Below the pieces are notes generated by a model. That model did not search any database. It saw only the letters and a program-made list of their open reading frames with translations, and was not told the origin of the DNA. Position numbers and translations under genes: made by a program. This document shows positions 24,169-38,308 of a stretch of 64,000 nt of DNA, piece by piece (the stretch's first letter is position 1; each line of letters begins with the position of its first letter). Origin of the DNA: an uncultured Lachnospiraceae bacterium (GTDB taxonomy: Bacteria > Bacillota > Clostridia > Lachnospirales > Lachnospiraceae); contig CANAPP010000010.1 in the NCBI GenBank assembly GCA_947363565.1, positions 1 to 64,000 of the forward strand, in the 5' to 3' direction.

Positions 24169-24310
24169 AATTTGAAAAATTTTGAAATATTCTGTAACAA
24201 ATCCGCCGTTTCTTACTCTTATAGATAAAGGGGTGCTTTTTACGGAAAACGGATAGGAAAAAGTGAGAACCTGAGGTATGATCATTTGACGGACGGATAA
24301 GAGGGCAAGG

Positions 24311-26989
24311 ATGGTGAAAGAGATGAAAAGAGGGAAACAAAGGGATAGGAAAAAAGAGCATCTTACGCGGGTGCAGCGGACATTTTCCACGGTGCTTTAT
24401 GCACTGGTCTTTGGGAGCCTGTGTTACCCGTGGATGCTGATCGGGGATAAGCGGTACTCCCTGGCGGCATTTGTGCTGCGGCTGAAAAAAAACGGTGTGG
24501 ATTTCTTTGTGGAGAAAGCGGGGCTATCGTCGGATCCGGTCTATGCGGGCGGGGTGAAGGTTAACCTTGCGCTGTTTCTCGTGTTTATCCTCCTGAGCCT
24601 TTTTTATCTGGTCACGGTGTTCATCCGGCGGGACTGGTATTTTAACCTGGGGGCGTTTTTAATGTCCATTGCGTTAGCGTACGCTGCCCTGACGCCTTAT
24701 ATGCTGGTGGATTTCTGCAGCAACCGGACGGAGGCGGTGCTTTATGTCTGGGTACTTCTGATCCTGACGGGAGTTGAATTTATCGGGCGGAAGCTGATCG
24801 AGAACTGGGACGTGACAGTACAGAATAAGAATACATACGAGGAGCTGGAGAAGAGACGGAAGGCCGAGCGCAGGGAACGGCTTTACTTTCCGGGGAAATA
24901 TAATCCGCTTTTCTGGCAGGCCATCTGGAAAAACTTCCGGCAGAATATCAAGGACTATGCCGTGCTGCTTTTGTGCAATGCCCTTGTGTTCGCTTTTGTG
25001 CTGTCGGGCTTCGGCCTTCAGAAGCTTACGGCGGCGGGAGATATGAGTATGAAGCTTGGCTATCCTTCCGGGGCAGGAAAGATCCTCCTGCGCAGCATCC
25101 TGGAGCTTGGGGTGGTGGGGCTTTTTATGCTGGTATTGCTGCTTTTATACTACCTGCGCAAAAGGATCCCGGAGTACGGCGTGTTCATGACACTTGGCAT
25201 CCGCAGGAAGACCATGTATCTGACCATGGGGTTGGAGCTTGGGCTTGGGACGGTGCTCTCCCTCATCCTCGGCGGGATCGGCGGCGTCTTGATCGTGACT
25301 GGCTTTCAGAAGAACTTAGGCGGCATAGCAGGCGGATTTTTATCGCCGCTCCTTTTAGTGAAATCCGTGGGAGTTATGCTGGTGCTTTATCTGGTGACTT
25401 TTTTCGTCACCCATGATCTGTTCGTGGGATTCCGTATGGGAAGTTCTACGGAGCTTCAGATGCTTAGGGAGAGGATGCCGGGGAAATTTAACGCCGTGTT
25501 CATATCGGCGGGAGCGGGAGTTACGCTGCTGATGCTTTCCTGGTACAGTAAGAACGGCAATTTTGAAAATATCTGGCTGCTTGGCGGCTGTTTCCTCGGG
25601 GTATATCTGCTCCTTCGCTGTGGGATGGCGTGGTATCTCATCCATGTACGCAAGAGGGAGGAGACGCTTCTGAAGCTTTTAAGGCAGCAGCCCTTCTGGC
25701 ACAAATCGAGAAGCGCGGCGTGGTACATCTTCGGCCTGTGTGTGCTGCAGATCTGTATCCTTGCAGTGTTTTCTGTCCAGCTTTTCTCCGTGTCGCTAGT
25801 GGGAGACCGGGACAAGCTTTTCCCCTACGACCTGGTGCTTTTTGCGAATGCAGAGTTTCCGGAGGATGAGGCGATGCTTGAAAAGCTGCGGGGGATGGAA
25901 GGCGTCGAGGTGTCGGATTATCCGATGCTTCGGGTGTCGGGGACGGATGCCACGGAGAGAGTGGAGGGAACCGGCATGGAGCCGGTGCGCAGCCAGAATC
26001 TTGGAATCCCGGAATCCGTCTACCATGCCTTAAAGCGGGAGAGGGATCCTTCCTATCAGGAAAAGCCGCTGGGGCTTGACGCGGAGGGCGAGACAGTCTA
26101 TATCGTCCATCAGCAGACGAAGGGTACCAAGGCGCAGCCCGTGGATTACCGGTTCCCGAGCGATAAGCCTTATCTTTATACGGGGCCGGTGTGTCCGGAT
26201 GTATATAGCTTTTCCCTGCAGAGTTCATTTTCCTCCAGGGAGATCATCGGGGAGGAGGCAGAAAGCCTGATTGGCATATTCTGCCAGGGGGAGAGGGAGA
26301 ATCTGGTGGTATTTTCCGACGATTATTTTGAGAAGGCGAAGGATACCTGGAAGGTGACGAATCCTTTCACGGGGGATATCCTGGGAGAAGAGGAACGTCT
26401 GGCGTATGCGGATTTTCTCTGGCAGGGACCGACGAAGCTTATTGCCGTGAAGGCAGACGAAGAAATTCTTGAAGCGTTAAAGCCGGACCTTGAGGCGTTC
26501 AGGGAGCGGCACGCGCGGGAAGAGGAGTATGATGCCAAGGTAAAGAGCGATTATCTTAAGACGGATGCAAGGCTCCAGACAGATACGGAGCTTCGGATGC
26601 AGGAGACGATGGGGAAGCTTCTCATCTGTATCTTTTTCGTGGCGGAAGTGCTGCTGATGGGCATCAAGATGATGACGGAAAAGAAGATGAATATCCGACG
26701 GGCGGAATTTTTAACCTGTATGGGGATGCGAAAAAGGGAGAGAAAGGGGCTCCTTCGGTGGGAGATGGGGGTCTATTATCTGCTTACAGCGGCCTTAGCT
26801 TTACCGGTCAGTATGGCGGTGGTGCTTGCCACTTTCCATGCAAGGCTCTACGGGGCAGAGGATATCCGGGCTATGCTTGCAAAAATCGTACCCTTCGGGG
26901 TGTGTGAGCTTATCGCTTTTGGTGTGGTGATCTTGGTATTCACGGAGTGGAATATCCGGCAGATTGAGAGAAAGACAGGAGGAAAGTGA
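24311..26989 (+). CDS. giant FtsX-type ABC transporter permease, copy 1
   Basis: 892 aa. An extra N-terminal module has about four membrane helices (near residues 24-44, 84-105, 110-131, 142-160), then a charged linker (165-195). The FtsX/BceB-like part follows with helices near 215-235, 258-282, 302-332, 345-367, 395-412, 420-443 and 468-493. A large outside domain (about 495-765) precedes the last three helices. The motif IPEYGVFMTLGIRRK is typical of FtsX coupling regions. It is paralogous to the next gene and probably forms a heterodimer with it, driven by the ATPase at 29669. BceB-type permeases usually have about 650 residues. No sensor kinase is nearby. Substrate unknown. Confidence 0.82.
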   Translation: MVKEMKRGKQRDRKKEHLTRVQRTFSTVLYALVFGSLCYPWMLIGDKRYSLAAFVLRLKKNGVDFFVEKAGLSSDPVYAGGVKVNLALFLVFILLSLFYLVTVFIRRDWYFNLGAFLMSIALAYAALTPYMLVDFCSNRTEAVLYVWVLLILTGVEFIGRKLIENWDVTVQNKNTYEELEKRRKAERRERLYFPGKYNPLFWQAIWKNFRQNIKDYAVLLLCNALVFAFVLSGFGLQKLTAAGDMSMKLGYPSGAGKILLRSILELGVVGLFMLVLLLLYYLRKRIPEYGVFMTLGIRRKTMYLTMGLELGLGTVLSLILGGIGGVLIVTGFQKNLGGIAGGFLSPLLLVKSVGVMLVLYLVTFFVTHDLFVGFRMGSSTELQMLRERMPGKFNAVFISAGAGVTLLMLSWYSKNGNFENIWLLGGCFLGVYLLLRCGMAWYLIHVRKREETLLKLLRQQPFWHKSRSAAWYIFGLCVLQICILAVFSVQLFSVSLVGDRDKLFPYDLVLFANAEFPEDEAMLEKLRGMEGVEVSDYPMLRVSGTDATERVEGTGMEPVRSQNLGIPESVYHALKRERDPSYQEKPLGLDAEGETVYIVHQQTKGTKAQPVDYRFPSDKPYLYTGPVCPDVYSFSLQSSFSSREIIGEEAESLIGIFCQGERENLVVFSDDYFEKAKDTWKVTNPFTGDILGEEERLAYADFLWQGPTKLIAVKADEEILEALKPDLEAFRERHAREEEYDAKVKSDYLKTDARLQTDTELRMQETMGKLLICIFFVAEVLLMGIKMMTEKKMNIRRAEFLTCMGMRKRERKGLLRWEMGVYYLLTAALALPVSMAVVLATFHARLYGAEDIRAMLAKIVPFGVCELIAFGVVILVFTEWNIRQIERKTGGK

Positions 26990-26990
26990 A

Positions 26991-29666
26991 ATGAACAAAG
27001 GGGTAAAGAAGGAAGGACGGGGGCGCACAGCCCCAGACCACCAGGAGCGGATACAGATGATCTATTCGCTTGTGGTGTATGGGCTGTGCCTTGGGGCGCT
27101 GTGCTATCCCTGGATCATGCTCGGGGAGAAACGCTATACACTGTTTTTCTTTGCACGGAGCATTAAAGCGGAAGGTGTGGATGCTGTCCTCGCCAGGGCG
27201 GGAGTTACGCCGGATACCAGCTACGAGGGAGGGATCAATGTAAGCCTTCTTCTGTATCTGATATTTGCGGTGTGCTGTCTTTGTTATGTGGTGACAGTGC
27301 TCATCAGAAAGGACTGGTATATGAACGTGCTGGCGCTGGTGGCAGGGATTTCCCTTACCTATACAGGGATGTCCGATGCTATGTTAGGGTCGGTGTGCAG
27401 CAACCAGACGGAGGCGACGCTGTACCCGGGGCTTCTTATGGTGCTGACGGCTGCGGAGTGGATTGGGCGCAAAGTGATCGAGAATTGGGATACGACGGTC
27501 AGTGAGACAAAGGTGCACGAGGAAAAGGAACTCCGCGAGAAGGAAGAACGCAGGCGGCGCCTGTATTTCCCGGGGAAATATAAAAAGCTGTTCTACCATG
27601 TGATCTGGAAGAATTTCCGGGGGAATCTGAAAGATTATGTGGTGCTTTTGGTGTGCAACGGTCTGGTGTTCGCCTTCGCGTTCACAGGCTTCGGCTTGCA
27701 GAAGCTAACGGAGGTCGGGGGAAACAGCTACCGCCCGGGATACCCTTCCGGAGCCGGAAAGATCCTTGTGCGGAGCCTGATCGAGCTTGGCGCGGTAGGG
27801 ATTTTCATGCTGGTTCTGCTGCTTTTGTATTATCTGAAAAAAAGGATTCCCGAGTACGGCGTATTCAAGACGCTTGGTATCCGCAGGAAGACCATGTATC
27901 TGTGCATGGGGTTAGAGCTTGGCATAGGGGCGCTTCTGTCTATTGTCCTCGGCGGGCTTGCCGGCACGGGCCTGGTGATCTTGTTCAGGGAAAATATGAG
28001 CGGTATCGGGGATACCTGGTTTTCTGCCGGGCTTTTGCTAAAGTCTGTAGGGATCATGCTGGTGCTCTATGTGGCAACATTTTTCGTGACCCACGACCTC
28101 TTCGTCGGTTTCCGGATGGGTAATTCCACTGACCTCCAGGTGATGAAGGAAAAGATGCCCGGGCGGTTTCACGCCCTGTTTGTGGCGGTGGGCGCTGTTT
28201 TGATGGGCGCCGTGTTCTGGCTTTACCGACAGAACAGTAATTTTGAAAATCTATGGTACTTGATCGGCGGATTTGCCGGCGTGTACATCATCCTGCGGTT
28301 CGGGACAGCAGGGTTTTTGTTGCGGGGAAGAAAGCGCGGCGGAGTACTTAAGCGTCTGTTAAAGGAACATCCATTTTATCACAAATCCCGGAGCGCAGTG
28401 TGGTACATGTTCGGTCTGTGCGTGATCCAGGTGTGTATCCTGGCGGTATTTTCCCTGCAGCTTTATTCGACGGCCCTTGAGCAGGACGTGGACGCGCTTC
28501 TTCCTTACGATCTGGTGCTCTTAGCAGACGGGGAGGAAGCAGACGGACGGCTTATCGAAAAGCTTAAAGCTTCAGAAGGCCTGGAAGTTACGGAGTATCC
28601 CATGTTCCGGGTGTCCGGGTCGGATGCCACGGAGAAGATGGAAAGTATAGAGCAGGATCCTGTCCGCAGCCAGAATATCGGTATTCCTGAGTCAGCGTAC
28701 CACTCCCTTAAGCGGGAGAGGAACCCTTCTTACCAGGAAAAGCCCCTTGGGCTTGACGATGCGGGGGAGAAGATCTATGTTGTGCACCAGCAGGACCGCA
28801 GCACGAAGGCACAGCCCATAGATTACAAATCCTTCCGGACGACGCCTTACCTCTATACCGGGCCGGTGTGTGAGATGATCGACGTATTTGCCCACGACAC
28901 AGCGTTCATGAACCGGGAGATCATCGGGGAGGAGCGTCAGAGCCTGATCGGTGTCCTCTCCCACGGAGAGAGGGAGAACCTGGTCGTATTCTCAGATACG
29001 GCTTTTGAACAGGCGAAGGATGTGTGGAAAACGACGGATCCGTTTTACGGCAAGGTTATAAAGCCGGAGGAGTTAGAAGATTTTGCCGGCGAACTATACC
29101 AGGGGCCGTCAAAGCTTGTGCTGGTAAAAGGAGACGTAGAGCAGATAGAAGGGCTCGAGGCGGAGCTTGGCGACTTCAGGGAGCGCCACAGAAGGGACGA
29201 AGAGTACGATGCCAAGGTCAAAAGCTGCTACTTAAAATCGGCGTCCAGGCAGCAGCTTGAGACAGAGTTTGGCATGCAGGACGCTATGGCAAGGATGCTT
29301 ATCGCCGTATTTTTCGCGGCATCGGGACTGCTTCTTGGGATCAAGATGATGACGGAGCGCAAGATGAATGTCCGGCGTGCAGAGTTCTTATCGTGCATGG
29401 GCATGAGGAATAAGGAACGCCTAAGGCTTTTGCACGGGGAGATGAAGGTTTATTATCTTATCGTGTCCGCGGTATCCGCAGTGTTCAGCGCGATGCTTCT
29501 GGCCGCTACATTCAGTGCCAGGCTTTACTCGGCGGCGGATATAAAGGCATTGCTGATAAAGATAGTACCCTTTGGGATCGGCGAACTTTTGCTGTTCGGC
29601 GGGATGGTCTGGCTGCTGACAGAGATTAATATCCGGCAGATTGAAAAAAAGATTAGAGAGGTGTAG
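26991..29666 (+). CDS. giant FtsX-type ABC transporter permease, copy 2
   Basis: 891 aa from ATG 26991, one base after the stop of copy 1 and with AGGAGG inside that gene's end. It has the same layout as copy 1: four-helix N-terminal module, linker, FtsX core, outside domain and three final helices. The best conserved outside stretch between copies is RSQN(L/I)GIPES followed by LKRER and SYQEKPLGLD, so the two outside domains are homologous, not just the membrane parts. Tandem duplication followed by divergence is inferred. The stop is 2 nt before the ATPase start, so translation is coupled. Confidence 0.82.
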   Translation: MNKGVKKEGRGRTAPDHQERIQMIYSLVVYGLCLGALCYPWIMLGEKRYTLFFFARSIKAEGVDAVLARAGVTPDTSYEGGINVSLLLYLIFAVCCLCYVVTVLIRKDWYMNVLALVAGISLTYTGMSDAMLGSVCSNQTEATLYPGLLMVLTAAEWIGRKVIENWDTTVSETKVHEEKELREKEERRRRLYFPGKYKKLFYHVIWKNFRGNLKDYVVLLVCNGLVFAFAFTGFGLQKLTEVGGNSYRPGYPSGAGKILVRSLIELGAVGIFMLVLLLLYYLKKRIPEYGVFKTLGIRRKTMYLCMGLELGIGALLSIVLGGLAGTGLVILFRENMSGIGDTWFSAGLLLKSVGIMLVLYVATFFVTHDLFVGFRMGNSTDLQVMKEKMPGRFHALFVAVGAVLMGAVFWLYRQNSNFENLWYLIGGFAGVYIILRFGTAGFLLRGRKRGGVLKRLLKEHPFYHKSRSAVWYMFGLCVIQVCILAVFSLQLYSTALEQDVDALLPYDLVLLADGEEADGRLIEKLKASEGLEVTEYPMFRVSGSDATEKMESIEQDPVRSQNIGIPESAYHSLKRERNPSYQEKPLGLDDAGEKIYVVHQQDRSTKAQPIDYKSFRTTPYLYTGPVCEMIDVFAHDTAFMNREIIGEERQSLIGVLSHGERENLVVFSDTAFEQAKDVWKTTDPFYGKVIKPEELEDFAGELYQGPSKLVLVKGDVEQIEGLEAELGDFRERHRRDEEYDAKVKSCYLKSASRQQLETEFGMQDAMARMLIAVFFAASGLLLGIKMMTERKMNVRRAEFLSCMGMRNKERLRLLHGEMKVYYLIVSAVSAVFSAMLLAATFSARLYSAADIKALLIKIVPFGIGELLLFGGMVWLLTEINIRQIEKKIREV

Positions 29667-29668
29667 AG

Positions 29669-30418
29669 ATGGGAAGTGTGTTAAAAGCAGAAAACCTGGT
29701 GAGGAATTATAAACTTCCGAATGAGGAAGAGGGCACGATAAAGGTACTTAAGGGACTGAATTTTACCATTGAGGAGGAAGAGTTTGTAGGGATCATGGGG
29801 AGATCCGGATGTGGGAAGACGACCCTTTTAAAGACGCTGGGGCTTATCGCCAACCCCACTGAGGGAGAACTTTATTTTAAGGGCAAAAAGATTAAGTCGC
29901 TCTGGGAAGATGAGCGGGCGGATATCCGCCGCAGGGAGATCGGCTTTGTGTTTCAGGATTTTTATCTGATGGACAGCCTGACGGTGGAGGAAAATATTAT
30001 GCTGCCGATGATCTTAGACAAGGCGGATGAGGAAAAATGCTTTGAAAATGCGAAAAACCATGCCGACCATTTCCAGATCTCCCGGCTCCTTCGGAAGTAT
30101 CCTTACGAGCTTTCGGGCGGCGAGCGCCAGAGGGTAGCGATCTGCCGCGCCCTGGTAAACCAGCCGTCCCTGATCCTGGCGGATGAGCCGACGGGGAGCC
30201 TTGATTCCAAGTCCGGAAAGATCGTGATCCAGGCCATGGACCAGATCAATAAAGAATATAAAAAGACCATCGTCATGGTAACCCATGATCCCCAGGTGGC
30301 AAGCTACTGCAGCAGGATCATCCTGTTAAAAGACGGGCTTATCCTGGACGAACTGAAGAATGACGGGGACAGGGAAGAGTTCTATCAGGAGATACTCGGA
30401 AGGATGGCAGACCTGTAA
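29669..30418 (+). CDS. ABC transporter ATPase of the giant-permease system (MacB/BceA type)
   Basis: 249 aa. Walker A is GRSGCGKTT (about residues 43-51), the signature is LSGGERQR, Walker B is LILADEPTGSLD, and the H-loop is VMVTHD. It is the MacB/LolD/BceA class that couples ATP use to mechanical movement of FtsX-type permeases. It would energise the two upstream permeases. A terminator follows, making this a closed three-gene operon. Biological role could be peptide-antibiotic resistance, lipoprotein or peptide export, or envelope signalling; sequence does not decide. Confidence 0.93.
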   Translation: MGSVLKAENLVRNYKLPNEEEGTIKVLKGLNFTIEEEEFVGIMGRSGCGKTTLLKTLGLIANPTEGELYFKGKKIKSLWEDERADIRRREIGFVFQDFYLMDSLTVEENIMLPMILDKADEEKCFENAKNHADHFQISRLLRKYPYELSGGERQRVAICRALVNQPSLILADEPTGSLDSKSGKIVIQAMDQINKEYKKTIVMVTHDPQVASYCSRIILLKDGLILDELKNDGDREEFYQEILGRMADL

Positions 30419-33005: not shown

Positions 33006-34445
33006 ATGGGCAACATAGCAACAGAAAGTGCAGCAGGCAAGAGAATTACCGCTTTGCTTGATGCAGGAAGCTTTGTTGAAATCGGCGCCGCTGTTACGGC
33101 AAGGACGACTGATTTTAACATGCAGGAAAAAGAAACCCCGGCAGACGGCGTCATTACCGGCTATGGGGTGATCGACGGGAATTTGGTGTATGTTTACAGC
33201 CAGGATGCATCAGTGTTAAACGGAGCCATCGGCGAGATGCATGCGAAGAAGATCGCGAACATTTACGATATGGCCATGAAGATGGGGGCTCCGGTTATCG
33301 GGCTTATCGACTGTGCGGGGCTGCGGCTCCAGGAGGCGACGGACGCCCTTAATGCGTTCGGCACATTATATATGAAGCAATCTCTTGCCTCAGGTGTGAT
33401 CCCGCAGATCTCGGCCATTTTTGGGACATGCGGCGGCGGGCTTTCCCTTGTTCCGGCCCTTACGGATTTCACCTTTATGGAGAGTGATAAGGCAAGATTA
33501 TTCGTGAATTCTCCCAATGCGATCCCGGGCAATGACATTTCCAGGTGCAATACTTCATCCGCAAAGTTTCAGAGTGAGAGGGCAGGGCTTGTGGACCGGA
33601 CAGGGACAGAGGATGAGATCTTAACCGAGATCCGGACCCTTGTCTGCATGCTTCCGGCGAACAATGAGGAAGATGCGTCCTACAGTGAATGCACGGATGA
33701 CTTGAACAGAGCCTGTCCGGACCTTGGGTACTCGGCGGAGGATGCAGCGATCGCCCTTTCTACGATTTCCGACGGTTATGTGTTCTTCGAGACGAAGAAA
33801 GAATTTGCCAAAGATATGGTGACCGGCTTTATCCGCCTGAACGGTATGACTGTGGGCGTGGTTGCGAACCGTTCCAAGGTTTATAATGAAGAGTCAGAGG
33901 TTGTGGCTGAGTTTGACGGCTCCTTATCGGCGGACGGTGCTGACAAGGCAGCAAAGTTCGTTGCGTTCTGCGACGCTTTCAATATCCCGGTGCTCACCCT
34001 GACGAATGTTAACGGCTTTGCGGCTACGGCGTATGATGAGGCGCACCTTGCGAAGGCTGCGGCGAAGCTTACCTATGCGTTCGCTAACGCTACGGTACCG
34101 AAGGTTAATGTGGTGACCGGGAAGGCATTCGGAAGCGCTTATGCGGTGATGAACAGCAAGGCCACGGGCGCAGATATGGTATACGCATGGCCCAAGGCGC
34201 AGATCGGCATGATGGATGCGGTTATGGCGGCAAAGATCATGTATGCGGATGCCGGCGCGGATGTGCTTAAAGAAAAGGCAGCCGCGTACAGAAAGCTCCA
34301 GTCAAGCCCGGAGTCGGCGGCAAGAAGAGGATATGTGGATGCCGTCATCGAGCCGGCGGATACGAGAAAATATGTGATCGGCGCTTTTGAGATGTTATTC
34401 ACAAAGAGAGAGGACCGTCCGATGAAAAAGCATGGTGCGGTTTAG
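33006..34445 (+). CDS. acyl-CoA carboxyltransferase subunit (12S/MmdA-like)
   Basis: 479 aa with the two crotonase-like halves of the PF01039 carboxyltransferase family; glycine-rich oxyanion stretches occur at GTCGGGLSLVPAL and GKAFGSAYAVM. Such subunits move CO2 between biotin and an acyl-CoA (methylmalonyl-, glutaconyl- or propionyl-CoA). GGAGGG precedes the ATG. It heads an operon with OadG-like, biotin carrier, OadB-like and OadA-like genes, so it can share the biotin carrier with the OadA-type enzyme. Acyl-CoA specificity is not readable here. It is shorter than the usual about 510-residue MmdA. Confidence 0.82.
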   Translation: MGNIATESAAGKRITALLDAGSFVEIGAAVTARTTDFNMQEKETPADGVITGYGVIDGNLVYVYSQDASVLNGAIGEMHAKKIANIYDMAMKMGAPVIGLIDCAGLRLQEATDALNAFGTLYMKQSLASGVIPQISAIFGTCGGGLSLVPALTDFTFMESDKARLFVNSPNAIPGNDISRCNTSSAKFQSERAGLVDRTGTEDEILTEIRTLVCMLPANNEEDASYSECTDDLNRACPDLGYSAEDAAIALSTISDGYVFFETKKEFAKDMVTGFIRLNGMTVGVVANRSKVYNEESEVVAEFDGSLSADGADKAAKFVAFCDAFNIPVLTLTNVNGFAATAYDEAHLAKAAAKLTYAFANATVPKVNVVTGKAFGSAYAVMNSKATGADMVYAWPKAQIGMMDAVMAAKIMYADAGADVLKEKAAAYRKLQSSPESAARRGYVDAVIEPADTRKYVIGAFEMLFTKREDRPMKKHGAV

Positions 34446-34459
34446 AGAGGTGAGGCAAA

Positions 34460-35230
34460 TTGAAGAAGAAAATTAGCTTATTATTATGCATGATTGCGGC
34501 TGTGTTCTGCTTCAGCGCCTGCGGAAAGACAGAAGAAGCACCGTACGATGAGGCGGAGCTTACCCAGGTGGCGGATTTCCTCATCGGCTACTGTGCGGAG
34601 GCTGATGAGCTGGCCCTTGAACAGTGGAATGAGATGTCAGAATTCGGCATTAACTTACAGCTTACCGAGGCGGGGCTTCCTTTTGAGGCGGAGAGTTTCT
34701 TAAGTGTCCTTGACAGCTGGCAGGCAGGCATCGCAGAGTGCGGCAACTATATCGAACACGGCGACTACAGCTTTAAGATGACCAACGGTAAAATAGAAGT
34801 CAGCTCCGATGCGAAGTTCGAGAACAGAGATGCGGTGATCTCATTCATGTTCGACAGCGAATCCAAGCTCGAGAGCATGACCGTCAGCGCGAATATGGAG
34901 ACGGGAGAGATCCTTAAGAAAGCAGGGCTTAATACGGTGCTCGGCATGGGAACGGTATTTGCGGTACTGATCCTTATCGCGTTTATCATCTCCCTGTTCA
35001 AATTTATCCCGGCGATCCAGGCGGCGTTCTCAAAGAAGCCTGAGCCGGCGGAGGTGGAAGCGACGGCCCCAGCGGCTCCTGCTCCGGTTGTGGAAGCAGA
35101 AAAAACAGATGATCTTGAACTGATCGCGGTGATCTCTGCGGCAATCGCGGCGGCAGAGGGGACAAGTACGGACGGATTTATCGTAAGGAGTATCAGACGC
35201 CGCCCGTCAAATAAATGGAATTCAAAGTAA
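34460..35230 (+). CDS. OadG-like subunit with lipoprotein outside domain
   Basis: 256 aa, TTG start with GAGGTGAGG upstream. A lipobox FSAC (C21) predicts a lipid anchor. Residues 22-155 form an outside domain resembling small DUF3887-like folds. A single helix (158-182) is followed by a Pro/Ala-rich cytoplasmic tail, as in OadG gamma/delta subunits of sodium-pumping decarboxylases. Classical OadG has about 80-100 residues and no outside domain. The subunit should hold the complex together at the membrane. The N-terminal domain is an addition whose role is unknown. Confidence 0.75.
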   Translation: MKKKISLLLCMIAAVFCFSACGKTEEAPYDEAELTQVADFLIGYCAEADELALEQWNEMSEFGINLQLTEAGLPFEAESFLSVLDSWQAGIAECGNYIEHGDYSFKMTNGKIEVSSDAKFENRDAVISFMFDSESKLESMTVSANMETGEILKKAGLNTVLGMGTVFAVLILIAFIISLFKFIPAIQAAFSKKPEPAEVEATAPAAPAPVVEAEKTDDLELIAVISAAIAAAEGTSTDGFIVRSIRRRPSNKWNSK

Positions 35231-35250
35231 AACCTTAGGAGGATATTAAG

Positions 35251-35625
35251 ATGAAAAATTATACGATCACAGTGAATGGTAATGTATATGACGTTACGGT
35301 AGAAGAAAAAGGCGCAGGAGCAGCTCCGGCAGCGGCTCCTGCCATGGCGGCAGCCCCGGCGGCGCCGAAAGCGGCCCCGGCTGCGGCACCGAAAGCGGCG
35401 GCAGGCGCAGGCGCCATCGAGGTCAAGGCAGGCGCGGCAGGCAAGGTATTCAAGATTGAGGCCAATGTGGGACAGAGCGTGAAGAAGGGCGATGCGGTCG
35501 TGATCATTGAAGCGATGAAGATGGAAATTCCGGTTGTGGCTCCAGAGGACGGGACGGTTGCAAGCATTGACGCAGCAGTGGGCGATCCGGTTGAGGCAGG
35601 CGCAGTGCTGGCTACATTAAACTAA
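35251..35625 (+). CDS. biotin carrier protein of the decarboxylase complex
   Basis: 124 aa. An N-terminal strand region is followed by an Ala/Pro-rich linker (about residues 22-54) and a biotinyl domain (55-124) with the biotin acceptor motif EAMKME, the modified lysine being K90. It swings CO2 as carboxybiotin between the carboxyltransferases and the membrane pump subunit, like the 1.3S subunit of transcarboxylase and MmdC/GcdC. AGGAGG precedes the ATG. Confidence 0.93.
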   Translation: MKNYTITVNGNVYDVTVEEKGAGAAPAAAPAMAAAPAAPKAAPAAAPKAAAGAGAIEVKAGAAGKVFKIEANVGQSVKKGDAVVIIEAMKMEIPVVAPEDGTVASIDAAVGDPVEAGAVLATLN

Positions 35626-35683
35626 AGTGAGACATATTCAGAAGAATGAGTCTTTTGAAATGAACACGACTGGAGGTTAAAAA

Positions 35684-36835
35684 ATGGAATATATAACAAC
35701 GACATTAGGAAACCTCATCCAGCAGACAGCTTTCTTAAACCTTACGGTGGGGAACCTGATCATGATTGCTGTTGCATGTTTTTTCCTATATTTAGCAATT
35801 CGACATGGGTTCGAGCCATTGCTTCTCGTTCCGATTGCCTTTGGTATGCTGCTTGTTAATATTTATCCGGATATTATGCTGCATGCAGACGAGTCAGCCA
35901 ACGGGGTGGGCGGTCTTTTGTACTACTTCTATATCTTAGACGAGTGGGCGATCCTGCCGTCACTGATCTTCATGGGTGTCGGGGCGATGACGGACTTTGG
36001 GCCTCTGATCGCCAATCCGAAGAGCTTTCTTTTAGGGGCGGCGGCACAGTTTGGTATCTTTACGGCTTACCTTGGCGCTATGGCCATGGGTTTTTCCGAT
36101 AAGGCGGCGGCGGCAGTGTCGATCATCGGCGGAGCCGACGGGCCGACGTCTATCTTCCTTGCAGGTAAGCTGCAGCAGACGGCGATCATGGGACCGATCG
36201 CGGTGGCGGCCTACTCTTATATGGCGCTTGTGCCGGTGATCCAGCCGCCGATCATGAAGTTATTTACGACGGAGAAGGAAAGGAAGATCAAGATGGAGCA
36301 GCTTCGGCCGGTGTCCAAGCTTGAGCGTATCCTGTTCCCGGTCATCGTTACCATCGTGGTATGTATGATCCTTCCGACTACGGCACCTCTTGTGGGCATG
36401 CTGATGCTCGGCAATCTGTTCCGGGAGTGCGGCGTGGTAAGGCAGCTTACCGAGACGGCATCCAACGCGCTGATGTATATCGTCGTTATCCTTCTTGGAA
36501 CGTCGGTCGGTGCGACGACGAGTGCGGAGGCATTCCTTAACTGGGATACGATCAAGATCGTCGTTCTTGGCCTGGTGGCATTTGCAGTAGGCACGGCGGC
36601 GGGCGTGCTGTTCGGAAAGCTGATGTGCATCGCGACCCACGGCAAGGTAAATCCGCTGATTGGTTCTGCCGGAGTATCCGCGGTCCCGATGGCAGCCAGA
36701 GTATCACAGAAAGTGGGCGCGGAGGCAGATCCGACCAACTTCCTTCTGATGCATGCGATGGGGCCGAACGTTGCGGGAGTTATCGGTACGGCGGTAGCGG
36801 CCGGTACATTTATGGCAATCTTTGGCGTTATATAA
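35684..36835 (+). CDS. sodium-pumping decarboxylase beta subunit (OadB/GcdB/MmdB)
   Basis: 383 aa polytopic membrane protein. The family's key stretches are present: GVGAMTDFGPLIANP, SIIGGADGPTSIF (the conserved Asp in the pore region) and SAVPMAARVSQ. It decarboxylates carboxybiotin and exports Na+. The length matches OadB (about 370-430). The gene lies between the biotin carrier and the OadA-like gene. Function is strongly supported by family and operon. Confidence 0.95.
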   Translation: MEYITTTLGNLIQQTAFLNLTVGNLIMIAVACFFLYLAIRHGFEPLLLVPIAFGMLLVNIYPDIMLHADESANGVGGLLYYFYILDEWAILPSLIFMGVGAMTDFGPLIANPKSFLLGAAAQFGIFTAYLGAMAMGFSDKAAAAVSIIGGADGPTSIFLAGKLQQTAIMGPIAVAAYSYMALVPVIQPPIMKLFTTEKERKIKMEQLRPVSKLERILFPVIVTIVVCMILPTTAPLVGMLMLGNLFRECGVVRQLTETASNALMYIVVILLGTSVGATTSAEAFLNWDTIKIVVLGLVAFAVGTAAGVLFGKLMCIATHGKVNPLIGSAGVSAVPMAARVSQKVGAEADPTNFLLMHAMGPNVAGVIGTAVAAGTFMAIFGVI

Positions 36836-36892
36836 ATCATGGGCGGGGCATGAGCCTTTGCCCCGACATCATCATATTTTGGAGGATAGAAA

Positions 36893-38308
36893 ATGGCAGA
36901 TACAGCAAAAAAACCAATTAAGATTACAGAGACAATCTTACGTGACGCACATCAGTCTCTGATTGCGACGCGTATGACCACCGAGCAGATGCTCCCGATT
37001 GTCGATAAGATGGATAAGGTGGGCTATCACTCGGTAGAGTGCTGGGGCGGGGCTACCTTCGACGCTTCCCTTCGTTTCTTAAAGGAAGATCCGTGGGAGA
37101 GGCTCCGTAAATTCCGCGACGGCTTCAAGAACACGAAGCTTCAGATGTTATTCCGCGGGCAGAACATCCTTGGATACCGTCCTTACGCGGACGATGTGGT
37201 TGAGTATTTTGTGCAGAAATCCGTGGCAAACGGTATCGATATCATCCGTATCTTTGACTGTCTCAATGACCTGAGAAACTTACAGACAGCGGTTACGGCG
37301 GCCAATAAAGAGAAGGCTGACGCACAGGTGGCTCTTTCTTATACACTGGGCGACGCCTATACAATGGACTACTGGGTGGATATTGCAAAGAGGATTGAGG
37401 ATATGGGTGCGACTTCCATCTGTATCAAGGATATGGCGGGACTCCTTGTCCCGTACAAAGCGACAGAGCTTATCGGTGCGCTGAAAGAAGCGGTAAGCCT
37501 TCCAATCCAGCTCCATACCCATTATACGTCCGGTGTTGCTTCCATGACTTACCTTAAGGCAGTTGAGGCGGGTGTTGACGTGATCGATACGGCCATGTCC
37601 CCGTTTGCCCTGGGAACGAGTCAGCCGGCGACGGAGGTTATGGTGGAGACGTTTAAAGGCACTCCGTATGACACGGGCTTTGATCAGAACCTTTTGGCGG
37701 AGATTGCGGATTATTTCCGTCCGATCCGTGATGAGGCGTTAGAGAGCGGGCTTCTTAATCCGAAGAACATGGGCGTGAATATCAAGACACTGCTTTACCA
37801 GGTGCCGGGCGGTATGCTCTCCAACCTGACGTCCCAGCTTAAAGAGCAGAACGCAGAGGATAAGTATTACGACGTTCTTGAGGAAGTCCCGAAGGTGCGT
37901 AAAGATCTCGGCGAGCCGCCGCTTGTTACGCCGTCCTCACAGATCGTCGGAACCCAGGCGGTATTCAATGTGCTGATGGGCGAGCGCTATAAGATGGCGA
38001 CCAAGGAGACGAAGGATGTCCTCAGCGGAAAATACGGCGCGACCGTTAAACCGTTTAACGAAGAGGTGAGGAAGAAAGTCCTCGGTGAGGGCGCAGAGAT
38101 CATCACCTGCCGTCCGGCGGATCTTATCGCAGACGAGCTGGATACGCTCAGAGGCGAGATGTCCCGGTGGAGCCAGCAGGATGAGGACGTGCTGTCTTAC
38201 GCACTGTTCCCGCAGGTAGCTACAGACTTCTTCAAGTACCGCGAGGCACAGCAGACAAAGATCGACCAGACCGTGGCAGATACAGAGAACGGGAGTTATC
38301 CCGTATAA
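36893..38308 (+). CDS. oxaloacetate decarboxylase/transcarboxylase 5S-type subunit (OadA-like)
   Basis: 471 aa. The HMGL-like barrel begins ETILRDAHQSLIATRM (metal Asp), has SICIKDMAGLL (carbamylated-type Lys) and QLHTHYTSG (metal His pair), followed by the PYC_OADA domain. It lacks the C-terminal biotin domain of full-length OadA, so it depends on the separate biotin carrier, as in the transcarboxylase 5S subunit. It moves CO2 between oxaloacetate/pyruvate and biotin. Ribosome site GGAGG. A terminator ends the operon. Confidence 0.92.
   Translation: MADTAKKPIKITETILRDAHQSLIATRMTTEQMLPIVDKMDKVGYHSVECWGGATFDASLRFLKEDPWERLRKFRDGFKNTKLQMLFRGQNILGYRPYADDVVEYFVQKSVANGIDIIRIFDCLNDLRNLQTAVTAANKEKADAQVALSYTLGDAYTMDYWVDIAKRIEDMGATSICIKDMAGLLVPYKATELIGALKEAVSLPIQLHTHYTSGVASMTYLKAVEAGVDVIDTAMSPFALGTSQPATEVMVETFKGTPYDTGFDQNLLAEIADYFRPIRDEALESGLLNPKNMGVNIKTLLYQVPGGMLSNLTSQLKEQNAEDKYYDVLEEVPKVRKDLGEPPLVTPSSQIVGTQAVFNVLMGERYKMATKETKDVLSGKYGATVKPFNEEVRKKVLGEGAEIITCRPADLIADELDTLRGEMSRWSQQDEDVLSYALFPQVATDFFKYREAQQTKIDQTVADTENGSYPV

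Follow-up and report, generated by a model that had tools for sequence, protein, structure and literature searches.

The window, a stretch of 64,000 nucleotides analyzed here as contig C10 of an uncultured Lachnospiraceae bacterium, carries three closely spaced genes on the forward strand. Permease A (24311-26989, 892 aa; ORF call and translation) and permease B (26991-29666, 891 aa; ORF call, AlphaFold and Foldseek) each consist of an N-terminal four-helix module (N-module) and a BceB-type core. They are followed by a gene for an ATPase of BceA/PsdA type (29669-30418, 249 aa), in which the Walker A (GRSGCGKTT), signature (LSGGE), Walker B (ILADEPTG) and H-loop motifs are intact. The permease genes are separated by one nucleotide and permease B lies two nucleotides from the ATPase gene; the 1-nt gap follows from the ATG at 26991, upstream of which an in-frame TTG is found at 26964. 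The two permeases are 58% identical from end to end, and a dN of 0.33 compared to a dS of approximately 1.6 (Nei-Gojobori) suggests that both are under purifying selection.

Judged by eye from the sequence, the upstream neighbor is a divergent Xaa-Pro aminopeptidase-like gene and the downstream neighbor a convergent gene resembling POT-type peptide transporters. Past the latter, at 33006-38308, lies a sodium-pumping decarboxylase-like cluster with genes for a carboxyltransferase, a small membrane subunit, a biotin carrier and a beta subunit, and synteny with this cluster frames the giant-permease site in many species. No kinase or regulator gene was seen among the flanking ORFs. The genome encodes 51 HATPase_c kinases scoring over the cut-off, none of which is located on contig C10 or on contig C19, where two further giant permeases are encoded. 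An earlier note on this DNA, which described two adjacent paralogous permeases of about 890 residues, diverged over their whole length, followed by one ATPase and lacking a nearby sensor kinase, was therefore correct on all of these points.

By profile and by model, the core of the permeases is that of the Bce family. Pfam detected a weak FtsX domain and nothing else in the core. A permease profile (A2) built from 31 relatives found BceB as its best match in the PDB (E 7.5e-18; residues 199-524 aligned onto BceB 5-342), with PsdB second. The AlphaFold model of permease B (pLDDT 78.8, pTM 0.71) begins with four helices, which are followed by seven helices of the core (213-496), an outside domain at residues 500-748 (28488-29234) and three final helices (749-890). 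In a Foldseek search with this model, BceB accounted for matches 1-5 (best 6.6e-18), YbbP followed at 5.8e-9, and LolCE and MacB were weaker. PsdA (E 5.4e-65) and then BceA are the solved structures nearest to the ATPase. The permeases thus have the 10-TM core, the large outside domain that separates TM7 from TM8 and the adjoining BceA-type ATPase gene of BceAB-type systems, and not the four-helix dimeric permease of the MacB/LolCE type, for which the matches were orders of magnitude below those to BceB. The earlier comparison with BceAB and the assignment to mechanotransmission-type ABC systems are borne out, while calling the role simply unknown was too weak for a core so clearly BceB-like.

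The giant size proposed in the earlier note was also right, but not the outside domain of about 270 residues: it spans approximately 249, which is ordinary for BceB and inside the range of 150-250 aa of BceB-type permeases (PMC12484072). Since the alignment to BceB begins at residue 199 (BceB residue 5), nearly all of the excess over a permease of approximately 650 aa that starts at core TM1 comes from the N-terminal 198 or so residues. Median conservation across the family was 39% for the outside domain, 26% for the membrane core and 18% for the N-module, the least conserved region, whereas in a comparison of 24 BceB-type permeases the outside domain was less conserved than the whole protein (PMC12484072).

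The operon shares the 10-helix core, the outside domain of approximately 249 residues and the adjacent BceA-type ATPase gene with the BceAB-BceRS bacitracin module of B. subtilis (PMC10314905). It differs in the kinase-type four-helix N-module, the tandem permeases, an ECF-type promoter and the lack at this locus of a co-encoded BceRS-type two-component system, which most but not all BceAB-type members have. The same points set it apart from the lantibiotic module PsdAB (PDB 9ugg), which provides the nearest solved ATPase and the second profile match. YbbAP, LolCDE and MacB belong to the same FtsX/type VII ABC superfamily and gave much weaker matches. To our knowledge, none of these three carries a kinase-type N-module.

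The N-module with its charged cytoplasmic helix comprises residues 1 to approximately 198 of each permease (24311-24904 in A, 26991-27584 in B). Modelled alone (pLDDT 91.2, pTM 0.82), it forms four helices, the last of which continues into the charged helix. No family was found for it in Pfam or NCBIfam, and no significant match in the PDB. The earlier note had considered the module unusual for FtsX permeases and had proposed an HMM search with it. When the N-module profile was run against the 2,856 ORFs of all loci collected, the full-length matches outside the permeases were GHKL kinases, at loci L099 (E 1.9e-13) and L082 (7e-9); a third GHKL kinase, in L082, was partly covered (3e-9). At both loci, genes for LytTR response regulators (Pfam) accompany the matched kinases. 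Alignment of the N-module with the GHKL-kinase membrane domain by hhalign gave 98.9% (E 3.4e-17, 161 columns), a similarity over the full length of the module. In Merdimonas faecis, a 1377-aa ORF consists of a GHKL kinase (GHKL domain at 342-437, E 6.8e-20) and a giant permease from approximately residue 497. Taken together, the kinase matches and the Merdimonas fusion indicate that the permease carries, as its N-module, a membrane domain of kinase type. The module is not a standard FtsX part. It sits on the permease in the window and on the GHKL kinase in L082 and L099, and no GHKL kinase with a membrane domain of this type was found in the window genome. The earlier note did not bring out this relation to kinase membrane domains.

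Other relatives considered for the N-module were rejected. Homology to the membrane part of the anti-sigma factors described below had an hhalign probability of 0.8%, and the resemblance to LHFPL tetraspans (profile E approximately 1) and to TARP auxiliary subunits (Foldseek E 0.1, TM approximately 0.3) was not significant and one of topology alone. Locus L082 was also considered as a case of a kinase with the N-module beside a permease of normal size; its DNA reads as though a deletion had joined kinase and permease, and its ATPase is broken, so that the locus was used solely for the domain content of its kinases.

In the BceAB-S complex, the four-helix bundle of the kinase touches TM1-4 of BceB (PMC10314905). 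By analogy, the N-module would occupy or extend this kinase-contact surface, and it is most likely the signalling dock of the permease.

An ECF-type promoter, TGTAACAAATCCGCCGTTTCTTACTCTTATA, is located at 24193-24223 on the forward strand and ends 87 bp before permease A (about 90-120 bp upstream). Neither this promoter nor the sigma/anti-sigma system that it matches appears in the earlier note. The operon itself has no sigma gene. Two units on contig C19 each encode, in this order, an ECF sigma factor (Sigma70_r2/r4_2 by Pfam), a zf-HC2 anti-sigma factor that also has a membrane part, then a giant permease and finally an ATPase. The consensus TGTAACRAA-N13-ACTCWTATA was found upstream of the first of these sigma genes in six species, and in the window genome at C19:37125-37155; the window site has the same consensus. 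The motif is consensus-based. Because the pattern was set from sigma-operon sequences alone, the window site is an independent match. When up to two mismatches were allowed in the 3.26-Mb window genome, exactly two sites were found, the one in the window and the one on C19, and none with the reversed pattern used as a control. Even with three mismatches allowed, 0.07 sites are expected in the window by chance. Six genomes of the genus contained 10 exact sites, of which 6 precede the sigma operon and 4 precede giant-permease operons without a sigma gene (one in the window genome, one in G001 and two in G002); the five genus-mates account for 8 of the 10, each of them upstream of either the orthologous sigma operon or an operon with a giant permease. 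Two sites with two mismatches elsewhere in the six genomes are no more than the reversed control gave. Another promoter, TGTAACNTTT-N12-ACGTTNATATA, precedes the second C19 unit and occurs just once in the genome. Two operons are predicted to be targets of the C19 ECF sigma factor, and the window operon is one of them.

Orthologous loci with one giant permease and one ATPase gene exist in at least six species, and in other Lachnospiraceae this arrangement occupies the same chromosomal site (L058, L059, L060/L069, L073, L074 and L077; L088 is a fragment of a locus of this type). At the site in G001 (L057/L070) one promoter-bearing permease was found and the ATPase was absent; either this permease must be served by an ATPase encoded at another place, or it is a sign of decay. 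A shortened permease and a shortened ATPase are located at the site in G004 (L061/L086), while G002 has a fragment of a second permease beside a permease. In the permease tree, permease A and its orthologues in G001 and G002 form one group (100/99 and 100/100), outside which permease B falls with moderate support (91/84). On this placement the duplication probably predates the window species, G001 and G002, with permease B lost in two of them. The two giant permeases on C19 are single and each has its own ATPase. Tandem giant permeases before one ATPase recur in Merdimonas (L092), and pairing may therefore have a use, for example as sensor and effector. In M. faecis BR31 (NZ_MIEH01000020, L092:3805-7938) the first of the tandem is the kinase-permease fusion. 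Another case of two permeases with one ATPase gene was seen in L106:2-5951 and L107:6769-12822, where sigma and anti-sigma genes are followed by a 698-aa permease, an ATPase and a second permease of approximately 665 aa.

The promoter and the permease pair can each be read differently. Another regulator might control the operon, with the ECF site a relic of upstream DNA shared by descent with C19. The window and C19 operons are indeed paralogous, and a sister clade (G003, G005 and relatives) has an operon at the same site without the ECF element, so the promoter link is not universal. However, the spacer differs between the window and C19 while both promoter blocks are exact, the element is kept at the three permease operons without their own sigma gene in G001 and G002, and in the window it is intergenic, with an unrelated aminopeptidase gene as its neighbor. 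We regard descent without present regulation as quite improbable. The earlier note had suggested a heterodimeric complex. In such a complex permeases A and B would each be half a transporter, as in LolC/LolE. That both copies look to be kept by purifying selection and that Merdimonas has a similar tandem, with a second-permease fragment in G002, fits such a heteromer. Yet each copy has, by model, the full 10-helix BceB core and would already be a complete permease (PMC10314905), the matches to LolC/LolE and MacB are far below those to BceB, and the orthologous loci elsewhere and both paralogous operons of the window genome hold one permease. BceAB combines two ATPases with one permease, and BceA, BceB and BceS associate as 2:1:2 (PMC10314905). 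A heteromer is thus not supported and very improbable; two separate transporters with one ATPase gene in common are the better reading by analogy to BceAB.

A further alternative concerns the role itself: the permeases might serve another envelope process, such as extrusion of lipids or lipoproteins or cell-wall remodelling. YbbP, LolCE and FtsX relatives do other jobs, and the outside domain is the best conserved region here, unlike in the 24 BceB-type permeases compared previously (PMC12484072). Still, the best matches in both sequence and structure, BceB, PsdB and PsdA, are all peptide-defence proteins, and decay or loss at the site in some species is more readily expected of an accessory defence than of a core process. 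We therefore find such a role rather unlikely. The reading that we consider reasonably probable is a Bce-type peptide-defence operon with two alternative permeases and one ATPase, placed under an ECF sigma circuit that acts in trans.

In such an operon each permease would probably bind two copies of the ATPase, as BceB does. From what is known of BceAB, the outside domain would meet a peptide bound to a lipid intermediate of the cell wall (PMC7038271; PMC12484072). The fold suggests that ATP turnover would then move the stalk and the outside domain and free the lipid intermediate from the peptide, a form of target protection (PMC7038271). Going by gene order, the C19 permease may relieve the anti-sigma factor on engaging the peptide, and permeases A and B might do likewise. 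The C19 sigma factor is then predicted from the promoters to transcribe both the operon that encodes it and the window operon. Permeases A and B with their common ATPase might then give more, or differently specific, protection. The model for this is S. aureus, where BraDE acts as the sensor and switches on the effector VraDE in trans via the NsaRS two-component system (PMC6291627). In both cases a sensing transporter would turn on a second, distant one; NsaRS is a two-component system, however, while the circuit proposed here is a predicted ECF sigma/anti-sigma pair. The BceB core, the ATPase type, the gene order, the promoter match and the homology of the N-module to kinase membrane domains are seen in the sequence or the model; substrate class, stoichiometry, sigma-dependent transcription and release of the anti-sigma factor by the transporter are what we infer.

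What appears to depart from known Bce modules is the ECF circuit in place of BceRS and the kinase-type membrane domain on the permease. The textbook example of a histidine kinase instructed by a transporter is the Bce type. A search of part of the literature turned up neither ECF-coupled Bce-type modules nor BceB permeases bearing a kinase domain. More tentatively, the system could be a new Bce-type class, in which an ECF sigma/anti-sigma pair replaces the two-component system, the permease took up a kinase membrane domain as a signalling dock, and one sigma factor commands both the C19 sensor and the two-permease effector of the window. If the Bce fold does instruct an anti-sigma factor and carry a kinase membrane domain, the surface coupling transporter to signalling could be mapped by comparing both arrangements. 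For gut Lachnospiraceae, among which bacteriocin competition is likely strong, this would also mean a further, so far unstudied circuit of peptide defence.

ECF-coupled Bce-type modules are not limited to giant permeases, as shown by two further operons of the window genome, on C16 (L040:1733-5623) and C5 (L148:3572-7409), which encode an ECF sigma factor, a zf-HC2 anti-sigma factor, a BceB-like permease of ordinary size and an ATPase. Neither permease has the N-module, which is therefore not required for ECF coupling as such. ECF sigma/anti-sigma pairs also lie beside MacB/LolD-like ATPases and other FtsX permeases on C28 (L180) and at C5:45000-56000 (L041), and all six zf-HC2 anti-sigma genes found by profile in this genome are near FtsX permeases. 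ECF coupling as a general trait of Lachnospiraceae was rejected, since in the rest of the family the majority of zf-HC2 anti-sigma genes have no BceB-like permease next to them. Full-length matches to the short anti-sigma type were found in the window genome and one genus-mate among 299 genomes, and additionally at loci of the genus and of Bariatricus reached by the permease search.

Relatives of the giant permeases were present in 12 of 299 sampled Lachnospiraceae; named hosts include Lachnospiraceae bacterium 3-2, Merdimonas, Faecalicatena and Dorea/Blautia MAGs. In a class-wide sample, two genomes besides that of the window gave matches, in permeases of ordinary length (frames of 614 and 686 aa) of which the core alone aligned. 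From these sequences the giant-permease module seems to be often lost. Decayed loci include L061/L086, with its shortened genes, and L082, where the deletion between kinase and permease is accompanied by a stop inside the ATPase gene.
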